Shown here in pieces: positions 7,834 through 23,753 of a stretch of 64,000 nucleotides of DNA. The number at the start of each line of letters is the position of its first letter. Position 1 is the stretch's first letter. A program made the translations under genes and the position numbers. The stretch comes from Clostridiales bacterium. GTDB taxonomy: Bacteria > Bacillota > Clostridia > Oscillospirales > Oscillospiraceae. The notes below the pieces were generated by a model. The model was given only the letters and a program-made list of their open reading frames with translations. It was not told the DNA's origin and searched no databases. The stretch is from NCBI GenBank assembly GCA_014799505.1, contig JAAVHV010000008.1, positions 25,722 through 89,721 of the forward strand. Direction: 5' to 3'.

Positions 7834-9024
7834 TTAGAACTCCAGATTCTTGCCGTCCTTGTCGAAGACATGGCACACATTGCCGCTGAAGGTCAGATTC
7901 AGCTTGTCGCCGGAGTGGTAAGAGTCGATGCGCTCACCATCGGCATCCATGGTGGGAACGATCACGACCACATCCTTGCCGTTGGCGTTGGCGTGGAAAT
8001 GAACCTCGCTGCCCATCAGCTCGGACACCTCGATAACGGCGGACAGGGTGTTGGCCGAATCCTTGGACAGCACCATGTGGCTGGGACGAACGCCCATGGT
8101 GACATCCTGCGCGGCCACCTTCTTGGCGGACAGATTCTTCTGCTTCTCCTCGGAGAGAACCACCTTGCAGCCGCCCACGGACACGGCGTACTTGCCGCCC
8201 TCGTTGACCAGCTTGGCGTCGAAGAAGTTCATCTGCGGGGTGCCGATGAAGCCGGCCACGAACAGGTTGGCGGGATGGTCGAACACCTCCTGGGGAGTGC
8301 CGATCTGCTGGATGAAGCCGTCCTTCATGATGACGATACGGTCGCCCAGGGTCATGGCCTCGGTCTGGTCATGAGTGACGTACATGAAGGTGGTGTTGAT
8401 CTTCTGGCGGAGCTTGATGATCTCGGCGCGCATCTGGTTACGGAGCTTGGCGTCCAGGTTGGACAGCGGCTCGTCCATCAGCAGCACCTTGGGCTCACGG
8501 ACGATGGCGCGGCCGATGGCCACACGCTGACGCTGACCGCCGGACAGAGCCTTGGGCTTACGATCCAGATACTGGGTGATGTCCAGGGTCTCAGCCGCCT
8601 CGCGCACAGCCTTGTCGATCTGATCCTTGGGCATCTTGCGGAGCTTCAGGGGGAATGCCATGTTCTCATACACGGTCATGTGGGGGTACAGAGCGTAGCT
8701 TTGGAACACCATGGCGATGTCGCGATCCTTGGGGGCGACGTCGTTCATCAGCTTGCCGTCGATGTACAGCTCGCCGCCGGAAATCTCCTCCAGGCCGGCC
8801 ACCATGCGCAGGGTGGTGGACTTGCCGCAGCCGGAGGGGCCGACCAGCACGATGAACTCCTTGTCCGCGATCTCCAGATTGAACTTCTGGACGGCGATGA
8901 CGCCCTCGTCCGTGACCTGCAGATTGGTCTTCTTCTCGGGCTCGCCCTTCTTCTTCTTCGCCTTCTTCTGGTCGCCGCTGTGGGGATAGATCTTCATGAT
9001 GTTCTTCAGGGACAAACCGGCCAT
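7834..9024 (-). CDS. Sugar ABC transporter ATP-binding protein (MsmK/UgpC/MalK type)
   Basis: Walker [29 protein letters not shown]-terminal TOBE-like region. Start chosen at [11 protein letters not shown]. Confidence 0.9.
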
Positions 9025-9541
9025 AAGTACCCGACTTTGATGGAGCGGCCTCCGCCATCTCCACCTCATTCCCGGACGCATATGTTCCGGGAACCTTGCG
9101 ACAGGTCTCCACACTGCCGCACCGCAAGTCGCAGCGGTATTTTTCCTCCTTTTTTCAGTACCGCGGACTATTTGGAATGGAGTAGTCCGCGGCCCGTCAA
9201 TTTAGTGCGCCCGCAGGCGCTGGTATGGAAAAGCGGCCCATAAGCTCCGCCGGATCCATCATTATGGATGAACGCTATGGTACTGGTAAAAATATAGCAC
9301 GGCCAGTGTAGAATTGTCAAGGGAAAATGGGCCGGAATTTTGTCATTTTTGTTAGCGGCCTCTCATATTTTCCCAGTGTAATGCTCCGCTCTTCCCGTCT
9401 GGCAGATCCGCCACAAATTTTCACCTGAAATATGTCGCTTTATGGCTTGACGCAAGGGGTGGGAAACGATATAATTCTGATAGGTTCGATAATTTTTTAA
9501 CAAATCATACTACTTTTCTAGTTTTTGGAGGAGAAGCTGTC

Positions 9542-16145: not shown

Positions 16146-17570
16146 TCACACGATCAGGAAGAACTTGATGAGGAACAGCGCGGAGATGACATAGGTCAGC
16201 ACAGACACGTCCTTGGCCTTGCCGGAGAACACCTTGATGACGGTGTAGGAGATCAGGCCCAGGCCGATGGCGTGGCCGATGGAGCTGGAGATGGGCATGG
16301 CGATGAGCATCAGCGCCACGGGCACCATCTGATCCATGTCGTCGAACTTCACGTTCTTCAGGCCCTGGAGCATCAGCACGCCCACGTAGATCAGGGCGGC
16401 GGAGGTGGCGGCGGCGGGGATGATGGCCGCGATGGGGGCGATGAACATACAGGCCAGGAAGATGATGCCGCAGGTCAGGGCAGTCAGGCCGGTGCGGCCG
16501 CCCGCTTCCACGCCGGAGGCGGACTCCACGAAGGTGGTGACAGTGGAGGTGCCGGTGCAGGCGCCGGCTACGGTGCCGATGGCGTCGGCCAGCAGGGCCT
16601 CCTTCATGTTGGGCATATTGCCCTGCTTGTCCACCATGCCGGCCCGGGAGGCGGTGCCCACCAGGGTGCCGATGGTGTCAAACATATCGATCATGCAGAA
16701 GGTAATGATCAGGGTAACCACGGTGAACACGCCGATGTCCATGAAGCCCTTGAAGTTGAACTTGAACAGGGTGGTGCTGGCCATATCGGCGAAGGGGGGG
16801 ATGAAGGAGGCGGTGGCCAGGGACTCGAAGGGATTGACCTTCAGGAAGGCGAAGGAGCCGATCCAGTAGATCACGGAGGCGGCCAGCATACCGATCAGCA
16901 CCGCGCCCTTGATGCCCTTCTTGGCCAGCAGGACGATGACGAACAGGCCGATGAACATGGTGGCCACGCTGAGCACCATGGCGGAGTAGCCGGAGCCCAT
17001 GGTGTCCCTGGCGGAGGAGGCGGTGAGCGCGCCGAAGAAGTCACGCATGACGTAGAACGGGCCGCCGTTCTCGGAGTAGATGCCGGCGTTGGAGCCGAAG
17101 CCGATGTTCATCAGCATCAGGCCGATGGCGGGGGCGATGCCCAGGCGCACGCCCAGGGGGATGGCGTCCACGATCTTCTCACGGATGTTGAGCAGGGACA
17201 GGGCGATGAACACGATGCCCTCCACGAGGATGATGACCAGCGCGGCCTGGAAGCAGGACGTATAGTCGTCCGACTTGGTGATGACCATGATGTTGGCCAC
17301 AACCACGGCGAAGAAGCTGTTCAGGCCCATGCCGGGGGCCAGGCAGAAGGGCTTGTTGGCCAGGAAGGCCATGGCAAACATACCGATGGCGGAGGCGATG
17401 CAGGTGGCCAGGAACACGCCGTTCCACAGGGGGGTGCCCACCGCGAAGCCGGTGAGCAGATTGGGGTTCAGGGCGATGATGTAGGCCATCGTCATGAACG
17501 TGGTGAGACCGGCCACGATTTCGGTGCGTACCGTGGTGCCGTTCTCCTTGAGCTTGAAAATTTTCTCCAT
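16146..17570 (-). CDS. NCS2-family purine (guanine/hypoxanthine-type) permease
   Basis: MEKIFKLKENGTTVRTEIVAGLTTFMTMAYIIALNPNLL; CTGTSTVTTFVESASGVEAGGRTGLT; purine riboswitch upstream. Confidence 0.93.
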   Translation of the reverse strand: MEKIFKLKENGTTVRTEIVAGLTTFMTMAYIIALNPNLLTGFAVGTPLWNGVFLATCIASAIGMFAMAFLANKPFCLAPGMGLNSFFAVVVANIMVITKSDDYTSCFQAALVIILVEGIVFIALSLLNIREKIVDAIPLGVRLGIAPAIGLMLMNIGFGSNAGIYSENGGPFYVMRDFFGALTASSARDTMGSGYSAMVLSVATMFIGLFVIVLLAKKGIKGAVLIGMLAASVIYWIGSFAFLKVNPFESLATASFIPPFADMASTTLFKFNFKGFMDIGVFTVVTLIITFCMIDMFDTIGTLVGTASRAGMVDKQGNMPNMKEALLADAIGTVAGACTGTSTVTTFVESASGVEAGGRTGLTALTCGIIFLACMFIAPIAAIIPAAATSAALIYVGVLMLQGLKNVKFDDMDQMVPVALMLIAMPISSSIGHAIGLGLISYTVIKVFSGKAKDVSVLTYVISALFLIKFFLIV

Positions 17571-17616: not shown

Positions 17617-17655
17617 AAACAAAATCAGCCCGGAAACGAACCGTAATTCCGCGCT
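17617..17655 (-). terminator. Putative riboswitch-controlled terminator (expression platform)
   Basis: On the minus strand: AGCGCGGAA...TTTCCGGGCT stem followed by GATTTTGTTTT. Confidence 0.6.
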
Positions 17656-17667
17656 TGTTTTTGCAGC

Positions 17668-17728
17668 CGGTAGTTGCCGGATAGGCCGACAGTAGAAACT
17701 CGGGACCCATTTCGCCCCAATTATACCG
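17668..17728 (-). ncRNA. Purine riboswitch (G-box) aptamer
   Basis: Minus strand CGGTATAATTGGGGCGAAATGGGTCCCGAGTTTCTACTGTCGGCCTATCCGGCAACTACCG: P1 CGGTA/TACCG, invariant GTTTCTAC junction, L2 GAAATGG, ACTAC 3' junction. Confidence 0.87.
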
Positions 17729-17815
17729 AAGGATATTGAGTTGACAGGAGAATAATACCATAAATCCGGACGGAATTCTACAGTTTTTTTCTTTTCCGGA
17801 AAACTTCATTACATT

Positions 17816-17961: not shown

Positions 17962-18513
17962 ATGACCTATGAAATGACCGTAGCGGGCCTCAAGCGCCAG
18001 CTGCCCCTGTGTCCCATCAGCGACACCCTGATGATCGGCGCCTTTGTCATCTTCGGCGATGTGGAGCTGACCTGCGCCTGCGCCCGGGAGCTGCTGAAGA
18101 TCGCGCCGGAATTCGACTACATGGTGGCCCCCGAAGCCAAGGCCATCCCCCTGGTTCATGAGATGGCCCGGCAGAGCGGCCGGAACGACTACTTCCTGGT
18201 GCGCAAGAAGAAAAAAGCCTACATGAACGGCGTGTTTGAGGCGGTGGACCGCTCCATCACCACCGAGGGGGAGCAGAAGCTGTATATGGACGGCGCGGAC
18301 GCCAAAAAGATCCGCGGCAAGCGCATCCTTATCCTGGACGACGTGATCTCCACCGGCGGCTCGCTGGCGGCGGTGGAAAGCCTGGTGGAGCAAGCCGGGG
18401 GCACCGTGGTGGGCCGGATGGCCATTCTGGCCGAGGGCAACGCCGCCAAACGGGACGACATCCTCTTCCTGGAGCGGCTGCCCCTGTTCAACGCCGAGGG
18501 CAATCCGCTGTGA
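17962..18513 (+). CDS. Purine-type phosphoribosyltransferase family protein
   Basis: PRPP-binding loop ILILDDVISTGGS; divergent from the purine permease. Confidence 0.8.
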   Translation: MTYEMTVAGLKRQLPLCPISDTLMIGAFVIFGDVELTCACARELLKIAPEFDYMVAPEAKAIPLVHEMARQSGRNDYFLVRKKKKAYMNGVFEAVDRSITTEGEQKLYMDGADAKKIRGKRILILDDVISTGGSLAAVESLVEQAGGTVVGRMAILAEGNAAKRDDILFLERLPLFNAEGNPL

Positions 18514-18555: not shown

Positions 18556-18712
18556 AAATTTGAATAAATTAAAAATTTTTGTTCGATTTCTTGAAAACCA
18601 CTTTACATTTTCCAAAGGCCATGCTATGATGTCAGTGTAAGAGATCGGTCCCCCTATTTGGGAGGAGGGAGGCCGGATCCCCACCCTATATTTAAGAAAT
18701 GAGGTGTCAAGT

Positions 18713-19702
18713 ATGAACCTATGGAAACGGCTGCTTCCCCTGGCCTTGGCCTTGACGCTGCTGGCCGGCTGCGCGTCCACCGGCAATGATATATCGGATG
18801 ACGATATTTACACCAACCGTGTGGAGCTGCAGGAGGTCAACATCGAGGACGAGGCTGTCGCCATGTCCGACGCGCCCGCCGCGCTGAGCACCCTGCTGCT
18901 GCCCGTGGCCTCGGGCACGCAGGTGGAGAAAAACAGCCGGGCGCAGATCGACTACTCCAACATCAAAGACGGCTATGTGATGGTCAAATGCTCTTCCACC
19001 GGCAAAAAGCTGGTGGTGCAGGTGTTCGGCCCCTCTTACTCCGCAAACCAGACCAAGTATACCTATAACCTGAGCGCGGATACGTGGACTACCTTCCCCC
19101 TGTCCGACGGCAACGGCAGCTACAAGGTGACCGTGTACGAGAACACCACCGACAAGAAGTACGCCGCCCTGCTCACCGCCTCCTTCAACGTGACGCTGAA
19201 TGACGAGTTCGCCCCCTTCCTGCGGCCCAACCAGTACGTGGACTACGCCAACGCCCCCAAGGCCGTTGCCAAGGCTGCGGAGCTGGCCGGTAATGAGACC
19301 GACCCGCTCAAGCTGGTGGAGATCATCTACGACTACGTGGTGACCAACCTGACCTACGACAAGAAGCTGGCCGCCACCGTTAAGAGCGGCTATCTGCCCG
19401 TGCTGGACAACGTGCTGGCCAAGAAAACCGGCATCTGCTTTGACTACGCCAGCCTGATGACCGGGATGCTGCGCAGCCTGGGCGTCCCCTGCAAACTGGT
19501 GGTGGGCTACGCCGGAACGCAGTATCACGCCTGGATCAACGTCTGGTCGGAGGAGACCGGCTGGGTGAACGGCGCGGTCTACTTTGACGGCAGCGCCTGG
19601 CAGCGGATGGATCCCACCTACGCCTCCTCGGGCAAGCAGAGCTCGTCCATCATGAAATACATCGGCGACGGGAAAAACTACAACCCGATGTATTTGTACT
19701 GA
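18713..19702 (+). CDS. Transglutaminase-like lipoprotein
   Basis: Signal peptide with lipobox LLAGC; 'KKTGICFDYASLMTGMLRSLGVPCKLVVGYAG..YHAWINVW' Cys/His/Asp transglutaminase core. Confidence 0.85.
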   Translation: MNLWKRLLPLALALTLLAGCASTGNDISDDDIYTNRVELQEVNIEDEAVAMSDAPAALSTLLLPVASGTQVEKNSRAQIDYSNIKDGYVMVKCSSTGKKLVVQVFGPSYSANQTKYTYNLSADTWTTFPLSDGNGSYKVTVYENTTDKKYAALLTASFNVTLNDEFAPFLRPNQYVDYANAPKAVAKAAELAGNETDPLKLVEIIYDYVVTNLTYDKKLAATVKSGYLPVLDNVLAKKTGICFDYASLMTGMLRSLGVPCKLVVGYAGTQYHAWINVWSEETGWVNGAVYFDGSAWQRMDPTYASSGKQSSSIMKYIGDGKNYNPMYLY

Positions 19703-19757
19703 GACCGGGGATAAAAATTTCAAAAAAGCCCTTTACGAATGGACGGGTTTGAATTAA

Positions 19758-19792
19758 AATGGGTCTGTGGTATCCACAGACCCATTTTTTAT
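19758..19792 (+). terminator. Intrinsic terminator
   Basis: ATGGGTCTGTGG-TAT-CCACAGACCCATTTTTT. Confidence 0.8.
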
Positions 19793-19829: not shown

Positions 19830-20873
19830 ATGAAACATAACAGTATTTCTCACGGGGAGCTGTCCTCCCTGTGCCTGGAGCTGTCCATGCTGTTCCACTC
19901 CGGCGTGGGCACAGGGGACGCCCTGACCCTGCTGGCGGAGGAGAGCGACCCGGCTTACCAGGCGATGCTTACTGACATGGCCAGCCGGGTGGACCTCGGC
20001 TCCACCCTGTCCGCCGCCATGCGGGAGACAGGCCGCTTCCCCGCCTATGTCTGCGGACTGGTGGAGGTTGGCGAACGGGCCGGACGCACCGAGGAGGCCC
20101 TGGCCGCCCTGGCCCGGTACTACGAGCGCCGCGCCCGGCTGGACCGGCGGATCAAGAGCGCCCTGCTCTATCCGGCGGTGATGCTGCTGCTGATGCTGGT
20201 GGTCATCGGGGTGCTGCTGATGCGGGTCCTGCCCATTTTTGACGACGTGTACGCCTCCCTGGGCGGGAGGCTCACCGGCGTGGCCGGCGGTCTGCTGACC
20301 CTGGGGCGCTGGCTGGACGGAGCCATGCCCGTGCTGTGGGTGCTGATGGCCGCCGTGACGGTGTTCCTGGCCGCCTTTGCCGCCCTCCCCTCCTTCCGGG
20401 AGAAGCTCACCGCCCTCTGGCGCGGCAGCCGCGGCGACAAGGGCGTAGCCCGGAAGATGAACGATGCCCGGCTGGCCCAGGCCCTGTCCATGGGCATGGC
20501 CAGCGGAATGCCCGTTGAGGAGGCGCTGGAGCTGGCCTCCGGCCTGCTGGACGATGTGCCCCAGACCAAGGAGCGCTGTCTGGAGTGCCGCGCCCGCCTG
20601 GAGCAGGGGGAGCGCCTGGCCGCCGCCATGCGGGGAAGCGACCTGCTGCCCTCCCGGGCCTGCCGCCTGCTGGAGCTGGGCCAGCGCAGCGGCACCGGGG
20701 ACGCCGCCATGGAGAAGATCGCGGACGACCTGTCCGAGGAGAGTGAGGCCGCGCTGGAGGATCGGGTGAGCCGGGTGGAGCCCGCCCTGGTGCTGGTGTG
20801 CTCCATTCTGGTGGGGCTGATCCTGCTGTCTGTGATGCTGCCGCTGATGCACATCATGTCCGCTATCGGGTGA
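19830..20873 (+). CDS. Type II secretion/type IV pilus platform protein (GspF/PilC family)
   Basis: GELSSLCLELSMLFHSGVGTGDAL, two GspF repeats, 3 TM segments. Confidence 0.85.
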   Translation: MKHNSISHGELSSLCLELSMLFHSGVGTGDALTLLAEESDPAYQAMLTDMASRVDLGSTLSAAMRETGRFPAYVCGLVEVGERAGRTEEALAALARYYERRARLDRRIKSALLYPAVMLLLMLVVIGVLLMRVLPIFDDVYASLGGRLTGVAGGLLTLGRWLDGAMPVLWVLMAAVTVFLAAFAALPSFREKLTALWRGSRGDKGVARKMNDARLAQALSMGMASGMPVEEALELASGLLDDVPQTKERCLECRARLEQGERLAAAMRGSDLLPSRACRLLELGQRSGTGDAAMEKIADDLSEESEAALEDRVSRVEPALVLVCSILVGLILLSVMLPLMHIMSAIG

Positions 20874-20879
20874 CGGGCC

Positions 20880-21203
20880 ATGAGGAAACAGAAAGCCCCC
20901 TGGGGGGCCTTGCTCCGCGCCCTGCTGCTGCCCGCGATGATCGTGGCGGTGCTGGTGTTTTTCTCCACCGCCCTCAACAGCATCGAAAGCGGCCGCGGGG
21001 AGGAGAACAAGCGGCAGCTCGAGCAGGCCCTGCGCCGGGGCTGTGTGGCCTGCTATGCCGCCGAAGGGATCTATCCCCCCGACATCGACTATCTGAAGGA
21101 GCACTACGGCGTCCAGGTTGACGAGACGCAGTACGTCGTGTTTTACACGGCGTTCGCGGACAACCTGATGCCCGATATCACCGTTCTGGAGCAGACGCCA
21201 TGA
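20880..21203 (+). CDS. Hypothetical pseudopilin-like protein
   Basis: N-terminal TM, amphipathic helix, 'CYAAEGIYPPDIDYLKEHYG' reminiscent of the GspG-type post-helix region. Confidence 0.5.
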   Translation: MRKQKAPWGALLRALLLPAMIVAVLVFFSTALNSIESGRGEENKRQLEQALRRGCVACYAAEGIYPPDIDYLKEHYGVQVDETQYVVFYTAFADNLMPDITVLEQTP

Positions 21204-21682
21204 GACGAAAGCAGATCCAACATCATATCGACGCGCTGGTCGCCCTGCTGCTGTTCGGGGTGTTCGCCGCGTGCGTCCTGGCGGTGCTGCTCACCGGGGC
21301 GGACGCCTACCGCCGCCTGACCCTGCGGGATCAGGAGGCCTCCACCCGGCGCGCCTGCACCCAGTACATCGCCACCAAGGTGCGGCAGTCCGACGCGGCG
21401 GACAACCTGTCGGTGGCAAACGTTCAGGGTGTCCCGACCCTGATCCTGGGTGGGGACGACGAATATGTCACCTACATCTATTGCTACGGCGGCTGGCTGC
21501 GGGAGCTGTACAGCTGGTCTGAACAGCCCATGTCCCCTGAGGACGGCCGGGAGCTGGTGCAGGCGGAGGCCCTTGACCTGTCCCTGGCGGACGGGCTGCT
21601 CACCGTCCGGGTCACCGACGCCCAGGGCAAAGAGGACACGCTGCTGCTGTCGCTGAGAAGCGAAGGGGGTGGGGCGTCATGA
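21200..21682 (+). CDS. DUF4860-like pseudopilin-like protein
   Basis: N-terminal TM 'HIDALVALLLFGVFAACVLAVLL' and small beta-rich C-domain, in operon with GspF- and PilT-like genes. Confidence 0.5.
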   Translation: MRRKQIQHHIDALVALLLFGVFAACVLAVLLTGADAYRRLTLRDQEASTRRACTQYIATKVRQSDAADNLSVANVQGVPTLILGGDDEYVTYIYCYGGWLRELYSWSEQPMSPEDGRELVQAEALDLSLADGLLTVRVTDAQGKEDTLLLSLRSEGGGAS

Positions 21683-22125
21683 AGAGCAAAGCCCCCCTGG
21701 CCATGATGGAGCAGATCGTCATGCTGCTGGTGTTCGCGCTGGCGGCGGCGCTGTGCCTCCAGGCCTTCGTGAAGTCGGATCAGCTGTCCAAGCGCAGCGA
21801 GGCCCGGGATCACGCGGCGGTGCTGTGCCAGAACGCGGTGGAAGTCCTGCGCTCGGCCAAAGGGGAGACGTGGGCCGTATCCGCGGCGCTGGACTATCCA
21901 TATCCTTATGGCTACACCCGGATGCCCCTGACTATCTACTATGATGATAACTGGGACGTGGTTTCGGAGACAGAAGGCGCCTACTGTCTGAAGGTGGAAC
22001 CTCTGGAGGACAGTGGAGTCCCCGGCCTGGGCAAAGGATATGTCGCGGTGACCGCGACGGGCACCGGCGAGATCCTGTTTGAGCTGGACGTCGCCTGGCA
22101 GGAGGAGGTGGGCGCCCATGGCTGA
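21679..22125 (+). CDS. Hypothetical GspI/PilV-like small membrane protein
   Basis: N-terminal TM 'MMEQIVMLLVFALAAALCLQAFVKSDQ'; 4-nt overlap with the previous ORF. Confidence 0.5.
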   Translation: MKSKAPLAMMEQIVMLLVFALAAALCLQAFVKSDQLSKRSEARDHAAVLCQNAVEVLRSAKGETWAVSAALDYPYPYGYTRMPLTIYYDDNWDVVSETEGAYCLKVEPLEDSGVPGLGKGYVAVTATGTGEILFELDVAWQEEVGAHG

Positions 22126-22633
22126 GCGGAAAAAGGAGGGCATGGCCCCTCCCGCCCTGGGCGGCAGCTCATTGCTGGTGGCCTTCGCGGTGCTGGCCCT
22201 GACGGTGTTCGCCCTATTGAGCCTGTCCACCGTCCAGGCGGACGTGCGGCTGGCGGATGCCTCCGCCCAAGCGGTGGAGGACTACTACGCCGCCGACTGC
22301 CAGGCCCAGGAGATTCTGGCCCGCCTGCGAAACGGCGAGACGGTGGAGGGCGTAGAGAGCCTCATACCGTGGCAGCAGGGAGACGAGGCACCCTCCGTAC
22401 TCTCCTCGCCCCCGGGGACGGAGACCGGCTTCCCGCTGGATGACGAGTACCTCTACACCGCTCCGGCTGCGGCGTACGTGGGCTACACCGTCCCCATCTC
22501 AGATACCCAGGAGCTCCAGGTGGAGGTCATACTATACGGAGCGGACTATGAGATCCTGCGCTGGCAGGCCGTCCCCGTCGGCGAATGGGAGCCTGACGAC
22601 CACCTGAACGTCTGGGGCGGAGAAGAAGAATAA
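22118..22633 (+). CDS. Hypothetical GspK/PilX-like small membrane protein
   Basis: 'GGSSLLVAFAVLALTVFALLSLSTVQADVRLADASAQAVEDYYAAD' N-terminus. Confidence 0.5.
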   Translation: MAERKKEGMAPPALGGSSLLVAFAVLALTVFALLSLSTVQADVRLADASAQAVEDYYAADCQAQEILARLRNGETVEGVESLIPWQQGDEAPSVLSSPPGTETGFPLDDEYLYTAPAAAYVGYTVPISDTQELQVEVILYGADYEILRWQAVPVGEWEPDDHLNVWGGEEE

Positions 22634-22645
22634 GGAGCGGAAACC

Positions 22646-23704
22646 ATGGCAGAACTGTTAGATTATTTGAAGCGGGCGGTGGAGGACAGTGCCTCCGACC
22701 TGTTTATTGTAGCGGGCGGCCCGGTGTGCGAAAAGCTGGACAAGAAGCTGATCCCCATCGGCACGGACCGCGTCATGCCCAAGGACGCGGAGGAGCTGGT
22801 TACCCAGCTCTATGCCCAGGCCGGACGGCCCAGGGATGTCTTTTTGCAGGACGGGGACGACGACTTTTCCTTCTCCGTGCCCGGGCTGGCCCGGTTCCGG
22901 GTGAATACCTACCGGCAGCGCGGCTCCATGGCGGCGGTGGTTCGGGTGGTGGCCTTCGGCATCCCGGACTGGCAGTCCCTGCACATCCCGTCCCAGGTGA
23001 TGGAGCTGGCCGGCCTTACCCACGGCATGGTGCTGGTCACCGGCACGGCGGGCAGCGGCAAGTCCACCACCCAGGCCTGCGTCATTGACCGGATCAACCA
23101 GACCCGGAGCGGCCACATCATTACCCTGGAGGACCCCATCGAGTACCTCCACCGCAACGCCAAAAGCATTGTCTCCCAGCGGGAGATCTCCATCGACACC
23201 CAGGACTACCTCGCCGCCCTGCGGGCCTGCCTGCGGCAGGCCCCCGACGTCATCCTCCTGGGCGAGATGCGCGACCACGAGACCATCCGCACCGCCATGA
23301 CCGCGGCGGAAACGGGCCATCTGCTCATCGCCACGCTGCACACCAAGGGCGCGGTGAACACGGTGGACCGCATCGTGGACTCCTTCCCCAGCACTCAGCA
23401 GGAGCAGGTGCGCTCCCAGCTGTCCATGGTGCTGCGCACCGTAGTGAGCCAGCAGCTGCTGCCCGACAAGGACGGCGGCATGGTGCCCGCCTATGAGATC
23501 ATGCAGATGAACAACGCTATCCGCAGCCTCATCCGGGACAACAAGACCCACCAGATCGACAACGCCATCGCCGCCGGCGGGGCGGAGGGCATGATCTCCA
23601 TGGATCAGTCCATCCTGGCGCTGTACAAGGCGGGGAAAATCACCATGGAGACCGCGCTGGAGTACTCCGACAACCCCGAGCAGCTCCGGCGGCGGCTGGG
23701 CTGA
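22646..23704 (+). CDS. pilT: PilT-like type IV pilus retraction ATPase
   Basis: GTAGSGKSTT Walker A, Asp/His boxes 'ITLEDPIEYLH', 'ILLGEMRDHETIRTAMTAAETGHLLIATLHT'. Confidence 0.9.
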   Translation: MAELLDYLKRAVEDSASDLFIVAGGPVCEKLDKKLIPIGTDRVMPKDAEELVTQLYAQAGRPRDVFLQDGDDDFSFSVPGLARFRVNTYRQRGSMAAVVRVVAFGIPDWQSLHIPSQVMELAGLTHGMVLVTGTAGSGKSTTQACVIDRINQTRSGHIITLEDPIEYLHRNAKSIVSQREISIDTQDYLAALRACLRQAPDVILLGEMRDHETIRTAMTAAETGHLLIATLHTKGAVNTVDRIVDSFPSTQQEQVRSQLSMVLRTVVSQQLLPDKDGGMVPAYEIMQMNNAIRSLIRDNKTHQIDNAIAAGGAEGMISMDQSILALYKAGKITMETALEYSDNPEQLRRRLG

Positions 23705-23726: not shown

Positions 23727-23753
23727 GCGCCCCCGGCAGATGTCCGGGGGCGC
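23727..23753 (+). terminator. Stem-loop at the end of the pil-like operon
   Basis: GCGCCCCCGG-CAGATGT-CCGGGGGCGC. Confidence 0.6.

Follow-up and report, generated by a model that had tools for sequence, protein, structure and literature searches.

Can a machine of the type IV filament superfamily persist without the motor that assembles its filament and the peptidase that matures its subunits? Both prepilin cleavage and an assembly ATPase of the PilB/GspE type count as core to this superfamily. The question is raised by a gene cluster in a gut bacterium of the Clostridiales (assembly GCA_014799505.1, contig JAAVHV010000008.1), analysed here within a stretch of 64,000 nucleotides (nt), the window, whose coordinates count from its first letter. 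The cluster encodes a GspF/PilC-like membrane platform, four small proteins (open reading frames ORF2 to ORF5), a PilT-family ATPase and, immediately upstream, a transglutaminase-like lipoprotein (tg). By descent it is a member of the type IV filament superfamily, with the GspF/PilC platform and the T2SSE/PilT-VirB11-like ATPase, but it lacks two features usually held to be core; among the superfamily traits not found for the window are a class III signal peptide on the subunits and an A24 peptidase in the genome. The reading that we favour, with somewhat more than even confidence, is an envelope machine derived from a type IV filament and independent of both PilB and prepilin peptidase, in which uncleaved, anchored pseudopilins would be worked by PilT with tg as a partner. 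Underneath it lie the gene set itself, its conservation, the absence of a second pilus-type ATPase and of a peptidase from complete relatives, and the loss of cleavage sites in two subunits, all of which are direct observations.

The six genes from gspF to pilT occupy 19830-23704 on the plus strand and are separated by gaps of 6-12 nt or overlap by 4-8 nt, the dense packing that the initial annotation of this DNA had described. The platform gene (19830..20873) matches T2SSF (PF00482, 2.5e-45) and, under the equivalog cut-off, TIGR02120 (2.4e-51). The ATPase gene (22646..23704) matches PF00437 (6.4e-37) and scores 411 bits against TIGR01420, for which the cut-off is 319, and both identifications made at first sight are thereby borne out. 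Walker A, Asp box, Walker B, His box and the AIRSLIRD motif are all present, and these motifs, AIRSLIRD in large part, are kept over 123 homologues. The closest solved structures are PilT chains (2gsz, 4.8e-99). It is the cluster's only motor, of the kind that ordinarily retracts pili. Judged by its sequence, the ATPase is assigned to the true PilT type; it reaches 116 bits against the ComGA equivalog (cut-off 300) and 124.6 bits against GspE (cut-off 630), while the platform reaches 94 bits against ComGB (cut-off 240).

The four proteins encoded between platform and motor each have a single transmembrane segment, as had been noted. No family match was obtained for ORF2, ORF4 or ORF5 in Pfam and NCBIfam, and searches of PHROGs and PADLOC gave no convincing match. 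ORF2 (20880..21203) is GspG/ComGC-like and carries the motif CYAxEGxYPP, in which C58, Y59, E62, G63, Y65 and P66 are invariant among homologues. It was modelled with AlphaFold2 (mean predicted local confidence, pLDDT, 91) as a long N-terminal helix over residues 8-62 followed by two strands, which form a small head. ORF3 (21200..21682), which belongs to DUF4860 (PF16152, 2.4e-22), was modelled (pLDDT 92) as a 63-residue helix (residues 2-64) with an eight-stranded head. The best full-length PDB matches of ORF3 in Foldseek are the GspJ pseudopilins XcpW (probability 0.89, template modelling score 0.43) and EpsJ (probability 0.75), and ORF2 has weak matches that include PilA4 and PilE. The fold check proposed earlier thus points to a pilin-type fold for ORF3 and a pilin-like one for ORF2, with Foldseek E-values that are not significant; a hidden Markov model search of the ORF2 and ORF3 profiles against PDB sequences returned nothing significant. 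ORF4 (21679..22125) and ORF5 (22118..22633) are assigned as GspI/PilV-like and PilX/GspK-like because their homologues in nine loci that keep cleavage sites, here called type I as opposed to the window's own group, type II, carry prepilin-like N-termini. All four are accordingly described as pilin-like, on models for ORF2 and ORF3 and on sequence for the others, and the predicted set is GspG-, GspJ-, GspI- and PilX/GspK-like rather than the GspG/H/I/K-like order first suggested.

The prepilin sites of these subunits differ sharply between the two groups. Two or three subunits per type I locus have canonical sites (e.g. G^FTLIE): ORF4 reads G^F[TSA]L[IV]E in eight loci and A^FTMVE in one, ORF3 reads G^xxxxE in 7/9, and in ORF5 a basic or Gln residue is followed by G. 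In the window, ORF3 has no Gly at -1 and has Asp at the Glu5 position; ORF4 reads AP^LAMME, so that Pro stands at -1 and Glu5 is retained; and ORF5, with GG^SSLLV at its membrane helix, retains the Gly and lacks Glu5, as in GspK/PilX. The earlier remark that no clear G^xxxxE is visible therefore holds in full for ORF2 and ORF3 and has to be qualified for ORF4, which keeps the Glu, and for ORF5, which keeps the Gly. A prepilin site was found in none of the ORF2 homologues examined, type I included. At -1 of ORF4, type II proteins (n=117) have Pro in 89 cases, Gly in 6 and another residue in 22; Gly or Ala occupies this position in 9/9 type I against 6/117 type II proteins (p 3e-10), while Glu5 is present in all 117 and in 126/126 overall. 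Similarly, ORF3 has Gly at -1 in 7/9 type I but 3/118 type II proteins, in which position 5 is mostly Asp. The Gly of ORF5 is kept in 126/127 homologues and is preceded by a hydrophobic or small residue in type II. In the PilT tree all type II sequences fall into one clade (Shimodaira-Hasegawa-like approximate likelihood ratio test support 100) and type I forms a basal grade; the cleavage sites of ORF3 and ORF4 were lost in coordination on one branch. A universal loss of the -1 Gly across type II was considered and rejected, as six ORF4 proteins retain it. A review describes the -1 Gly as "absolutely critical" for prepilin processing, and Glu5 as dispensable for processing yet required for assembling homopolymeric pili (PMC4471445). 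The loss of Gly together with strict retention of Glu5 is the pattern expected if subunits have ceased to be cut while continuing to assemble.

The cluster and its missing components were looked for in 60 relatives as well as in 248 genomes from the order and 393 from the class. The window's own genome, in which Peptidase_A24 was not found, is a metagenome-assembled genome of 65% completeness, and absences there consequently mean little. The cluster is patchy yet widespread in Clostridia, its named carriers including Flintibacter, Lawsonibacter, Oscillibacter, Pseudoflavonifractor and Dysosmobacter, and its gene order recurs in about 140 loci, a figure in which some loci are counted twice. Cultured type II strains such as Oscillibacter valericigenes An860 and Flavonifractor sp. 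An100 have it as well. The order is kept across about 10 families, and the cluster is not peculiar to the window's genome. A cluster-only set was defined from type II genomes that are at least 92% complete and have no PilB or Tad ATPase (n=24: G006, G030, G021, G017, G014, G146, G181, G247, G227, G143, G116, G064, G155, G234, G068, G083, G212, G276, G136, G221, G078, G486, G571 and G411, with G143 and G411 on single contigs). None of these has a second significant T2SSE match besides the operon PilT (G221 has one extra weak, partial match), and in 23/24 no Peptidase_A24 match exceeds the family cut-off, the one in G234 lying under it. By comparison, A24 is present in 24/24 PilB-bearing genomes (Fisher p 1.6e-12, from related genomes that are not phylogenetically independent). 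The A24 gene of G014 (L119:5226-5921, contig G014:C1, minus strand) stands alone, with no adjoining pilus genes.

Closed or near-closed genomes such as G143, G411, G571 and G146 have one significant T2SSE match, one GspF and no A24 above the cut-off. GspF is single-copy wherever no Tad system exists; Tad loci sit apart from the cluster in some genomes. Full-length PilM_2 occurs only in canonical genomes (G054, G027, G012, G044), and the cluster-only genomes have a partial match or none. Type I genomes carry A24 in 9/9 cases and PilB in most, G088 having A24 but neither PilB nor Tad. The initial annotation had named pilB, pilD and a major pilin elsewhere, together with clear cleavage motifs, as finds that would count against it; no PilB-type ATPase and, G014 apart, no Peptidase_A24 above the cut-off turned up in the closed or near-complete carriers, and its proposal that a PilT-family ATPase drives a divergent pseudopilus, which may go uncleaved, or an envelope machine is supported.

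The cluster does not begin at gspF. The tg gene (18704..19702, plus strand; PF01841, 2.5e-23) encodes a Transglut_core protein with the lipobox LLAGC and a Cys245-His275-Asp303 triad whose residues are each kept in at least 93% of 115 homologues, 79 of which have a recognisable lipobox. Its best PDB match is 6g49 (1e-5), a protein-glutamine gamma-glutamyltransferase which we take to be TgpA. Almost every relative whose flank is long enough has this gene ahead of gspF. The complete order tg-gspF-ORF2-ORF3-ORF4-ORF5-pilT, with tg directly 5' of gspF, occurs in 71/80 named loci, and in two others (L186 and L111) tg is placed after pilT. The description of the six genes as self-contained therefore has to be given up. 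Other conserved neighbours were sought around the seven genes and none was found. The terminator first placed at 19758-19792 as the leading border exists as a T-tailed hairpin, read in the sequence at 19756..19788 (plus strand), but it is lineage-specific, being shared with three near relatives (G026, G017, G032) and absent from most relatives inspected. Since tg and gspF lie about 10-20 nt apart without a hairpin in many relatives, it is a local trait that lies within a seven-gene cluster rather than bordering it, and the two genes probably form a single operon; in the window's lineage the hairpin may act as an attenuator instead of a plain terminator. A promoter-like site, TTTACG-17-TAAAAT, lies directly 5' of it at 19732-19760. 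Upstream of tg, a candidate sigma-70-like promoter (TTTACA-17-TATGAT with TG, 10/12, a consensus match only) was noted at 18602..18630 on the plus strand. The closing stem-loop, 3' of pilT at 23727..23753, is real, with a 10-bp GC stem, although the T-rich tail picked up by a pattern scan is that of the minus strand.

The ratio of nonsynonymous to synonymous substitution rates (dN/dS) lies between 0.05 and 0.65 over all genes, low in PilT and ORF2 and highest in ORF4 and ORF5, so that the cluster is under purifying selection; such values and an order that recurs in about 140 loci also mean that the genes have not come together by chance. Several loci depart from the standard arrangement. L249 (G048:C2, 4004-6766, minus strand) retains intact copies of gspF and all four pseudopilin genes but has neither pilT nor tg; the genome, G048, is 100% complete and has no significant T2SSE ATPase, apparently a motor-less version. 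In L239 (G469) and L240 (G436) the genes from tg to ORF5 stand together and a PilT-type ATPase is encoded on the same contig at a distance of about 40 kb, which implies that the cluster can be split. Three loci on contigs labelled Parablautia and Emergencia (L136, L138, L143) have an ORF2 60-65% identical to that of the window and may reflect horizontal transfer or mislabelling. Elsewhere in the window are a purine riboswitch (RF00167, 39.5 bits; 17651-17748, minus strand) just 5' of a permease-like gene (16146-17570, minus strand), a phosphoribosyltransferase-like ORF (17962-18513, plus strand) and a malK-I cis-regulatory RNA (RF03069, 139 bits; 9019-9200, minus strand).

In the machine that we envisage, ORF2 to ORF5 would remain uncleaved, held in the membrane by the N-terminal helix with a short basic N-terminus in the cytosol, and would build a short, tip-like complex on GspF in which Glu5 is retained for subunit contacts. 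ATP hydrolysis by PilT would turn or pump GspF, and the complex would work through the wall like a rotor or piston rather than being a long extruded pilus. As an extracellular partner, tg might cross-link or trim a surface protein or wall component presented by the complex. The absence of PilB, of cleavage and of a cleavable major pilin in the cluster makes it likely that no fibre is extruded. The strictest version, in which type II subunits undergo no maturation at all and form a permanent membrane-anchored rotor or piston with a PilT-class motor mechanically coupled to the extracellular tg, is plausible, at slightly less than even chances.

Several points weigh against this reading. We infer both the absence of fibre extrusion and the joint action of tg with the complex. 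No cleavable major pilin is encoded in the cluster, while the rest of the genomes was not searched with prepilin-motif tools. The conserved Gly of ORF5 at a -1-like place and the six type II ORF4 proteins with Gly, among them those of the A24-less G116, G064 and G486, leave room for a peptidase of another kind, and the cluster-only G014 carries an orphan TadV-like A24 peptidase. The Foldseek E-value for the GspJ match of ORF3 is 0.27, which is not significant, and the same holds for the matches of ORF2. Finally, PilT is reported to promote extension of MSHA pili as well (PMC9815625).

The main rival explanation, unlikely but to be taken seriously, is that true pili are still built, with PilT as an assembly or two-way motor and the pilins uncleaved or cut by a non-A24 protease. 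It would account for the invariant Glu5 of ORF4 and the near-invariant Gly of ORF5, it has a parallel in single-ATPase systems (Com, Tad) that can extend and perhaps retract (PMC6668835), and the report on MSHA pili also speaks for it. On the other hand, a survey of the superfamily describes PilB as the assembly motor, essential in all families (PMC6668835); the Gly critical for processing (PMC4471445) is lost from ORF3 and ORF4; and no prepilin site is seen, even in type I, in ORF2, which alone among the subunits resembles a major pilin. A minimal device resembling a type II secretion system (T2SS), in which a substrate, perhaps what tg acts on, is carried across or into the wall by uncleaved pseudopilins, is less probable again: the subunits do resemble the T2SS tip set G/I/J/K and an exported enzyme is conserved next door, but tg has its own lipobox and hence a Sec route, no second conserved cargo gene lies nearby and the T2SS-specific ATPase is absent. 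It is very improbable that the cluster is an accessory or priming module, comparable to a minor-pilin operon, that borrows PilB and PilD from a type IV pilus or Tad system elsewhere. Peptidase-less MSH loci do occur, only beside systems that supply a peptidase (PMC6668835), and the genome content of type I would suit such an arrangement, so that it could hold there; for type II in general the 24 near-complete genomes without PilB or Tad ATPase, 23 of them without A24 above the cut-off, rule it out. A decaying remnant of a pilus operon after loss of pilB and pilD deserves hardly any credence, as purifying selection on every gene, catalytic and structural residues kept over about 120 homologues and synteny across families rule it out for the main clade, even though the -1 Gly is lost and G048 lacks the ATPase while five other genes are intact.

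If the envelope machine proposed here is real, the superfamily has a member that works without a peptidase and extrudes no filament. Nothing of this kind is described in the literature searched, which lacks most subscription papers and yielded no paper dealing with DUF4860 or such a system. In a large clade that is common among gut Clostridia, PilB and probably cleavage are gone, yet selection still acts on the platform, the four pseudopilins and PilT. Types I and II form a natural before-and-after set, which makes testable a role of Glu5 beyond processing and a role of PilT without a PilB-built pilus.

Among known systems, the type IVa pilus shares with the cluster a PilT-family ATPase over the NCBIfam cut-off, a PilC/GspF platform and pilin-like subunits; the cluster differs in having no PilB, PilD or full-length PilM, in the lost prepilin sites of ORF3 and ORF4 and in the lack of a visible one in ORF2. 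The monoderm Com pilus (ComGA-GG, ComC) is likewise a compact operon of Gram-positive bacteria with one ATPase, one platform and few small pilins, whereas the ATPase here is of PilT type (411 against 116 bits for ComGA), the ComGB score is low and there is no ComC-type peptidase. The T2SS pseudopilus tip (GspI-J-K with GspG and GspF) has the assigned subunit types in common with the cluster and probably the GspJ-like fold of ORF3, but GspE, GspO and other Gsp proteins are missing and the ATPase is again PilT type. The Tad/Flp pilus is similar in that one ATPase can serve both directions in some species (PMC6668835), while TadA, TadB/C and Flp are all absent from the cluster. The putative partner enzyme has its own counterpart in TgpA, which is reported to be critical for the viability of Pseudomonas aeruginosa (PMC3507681), and in other exported transglutaminase-like enzymes, which also place Transglut_core outside the membrane; what sets tg apart is that it is a small lipoprotein fixed beside a PilT-type machine.

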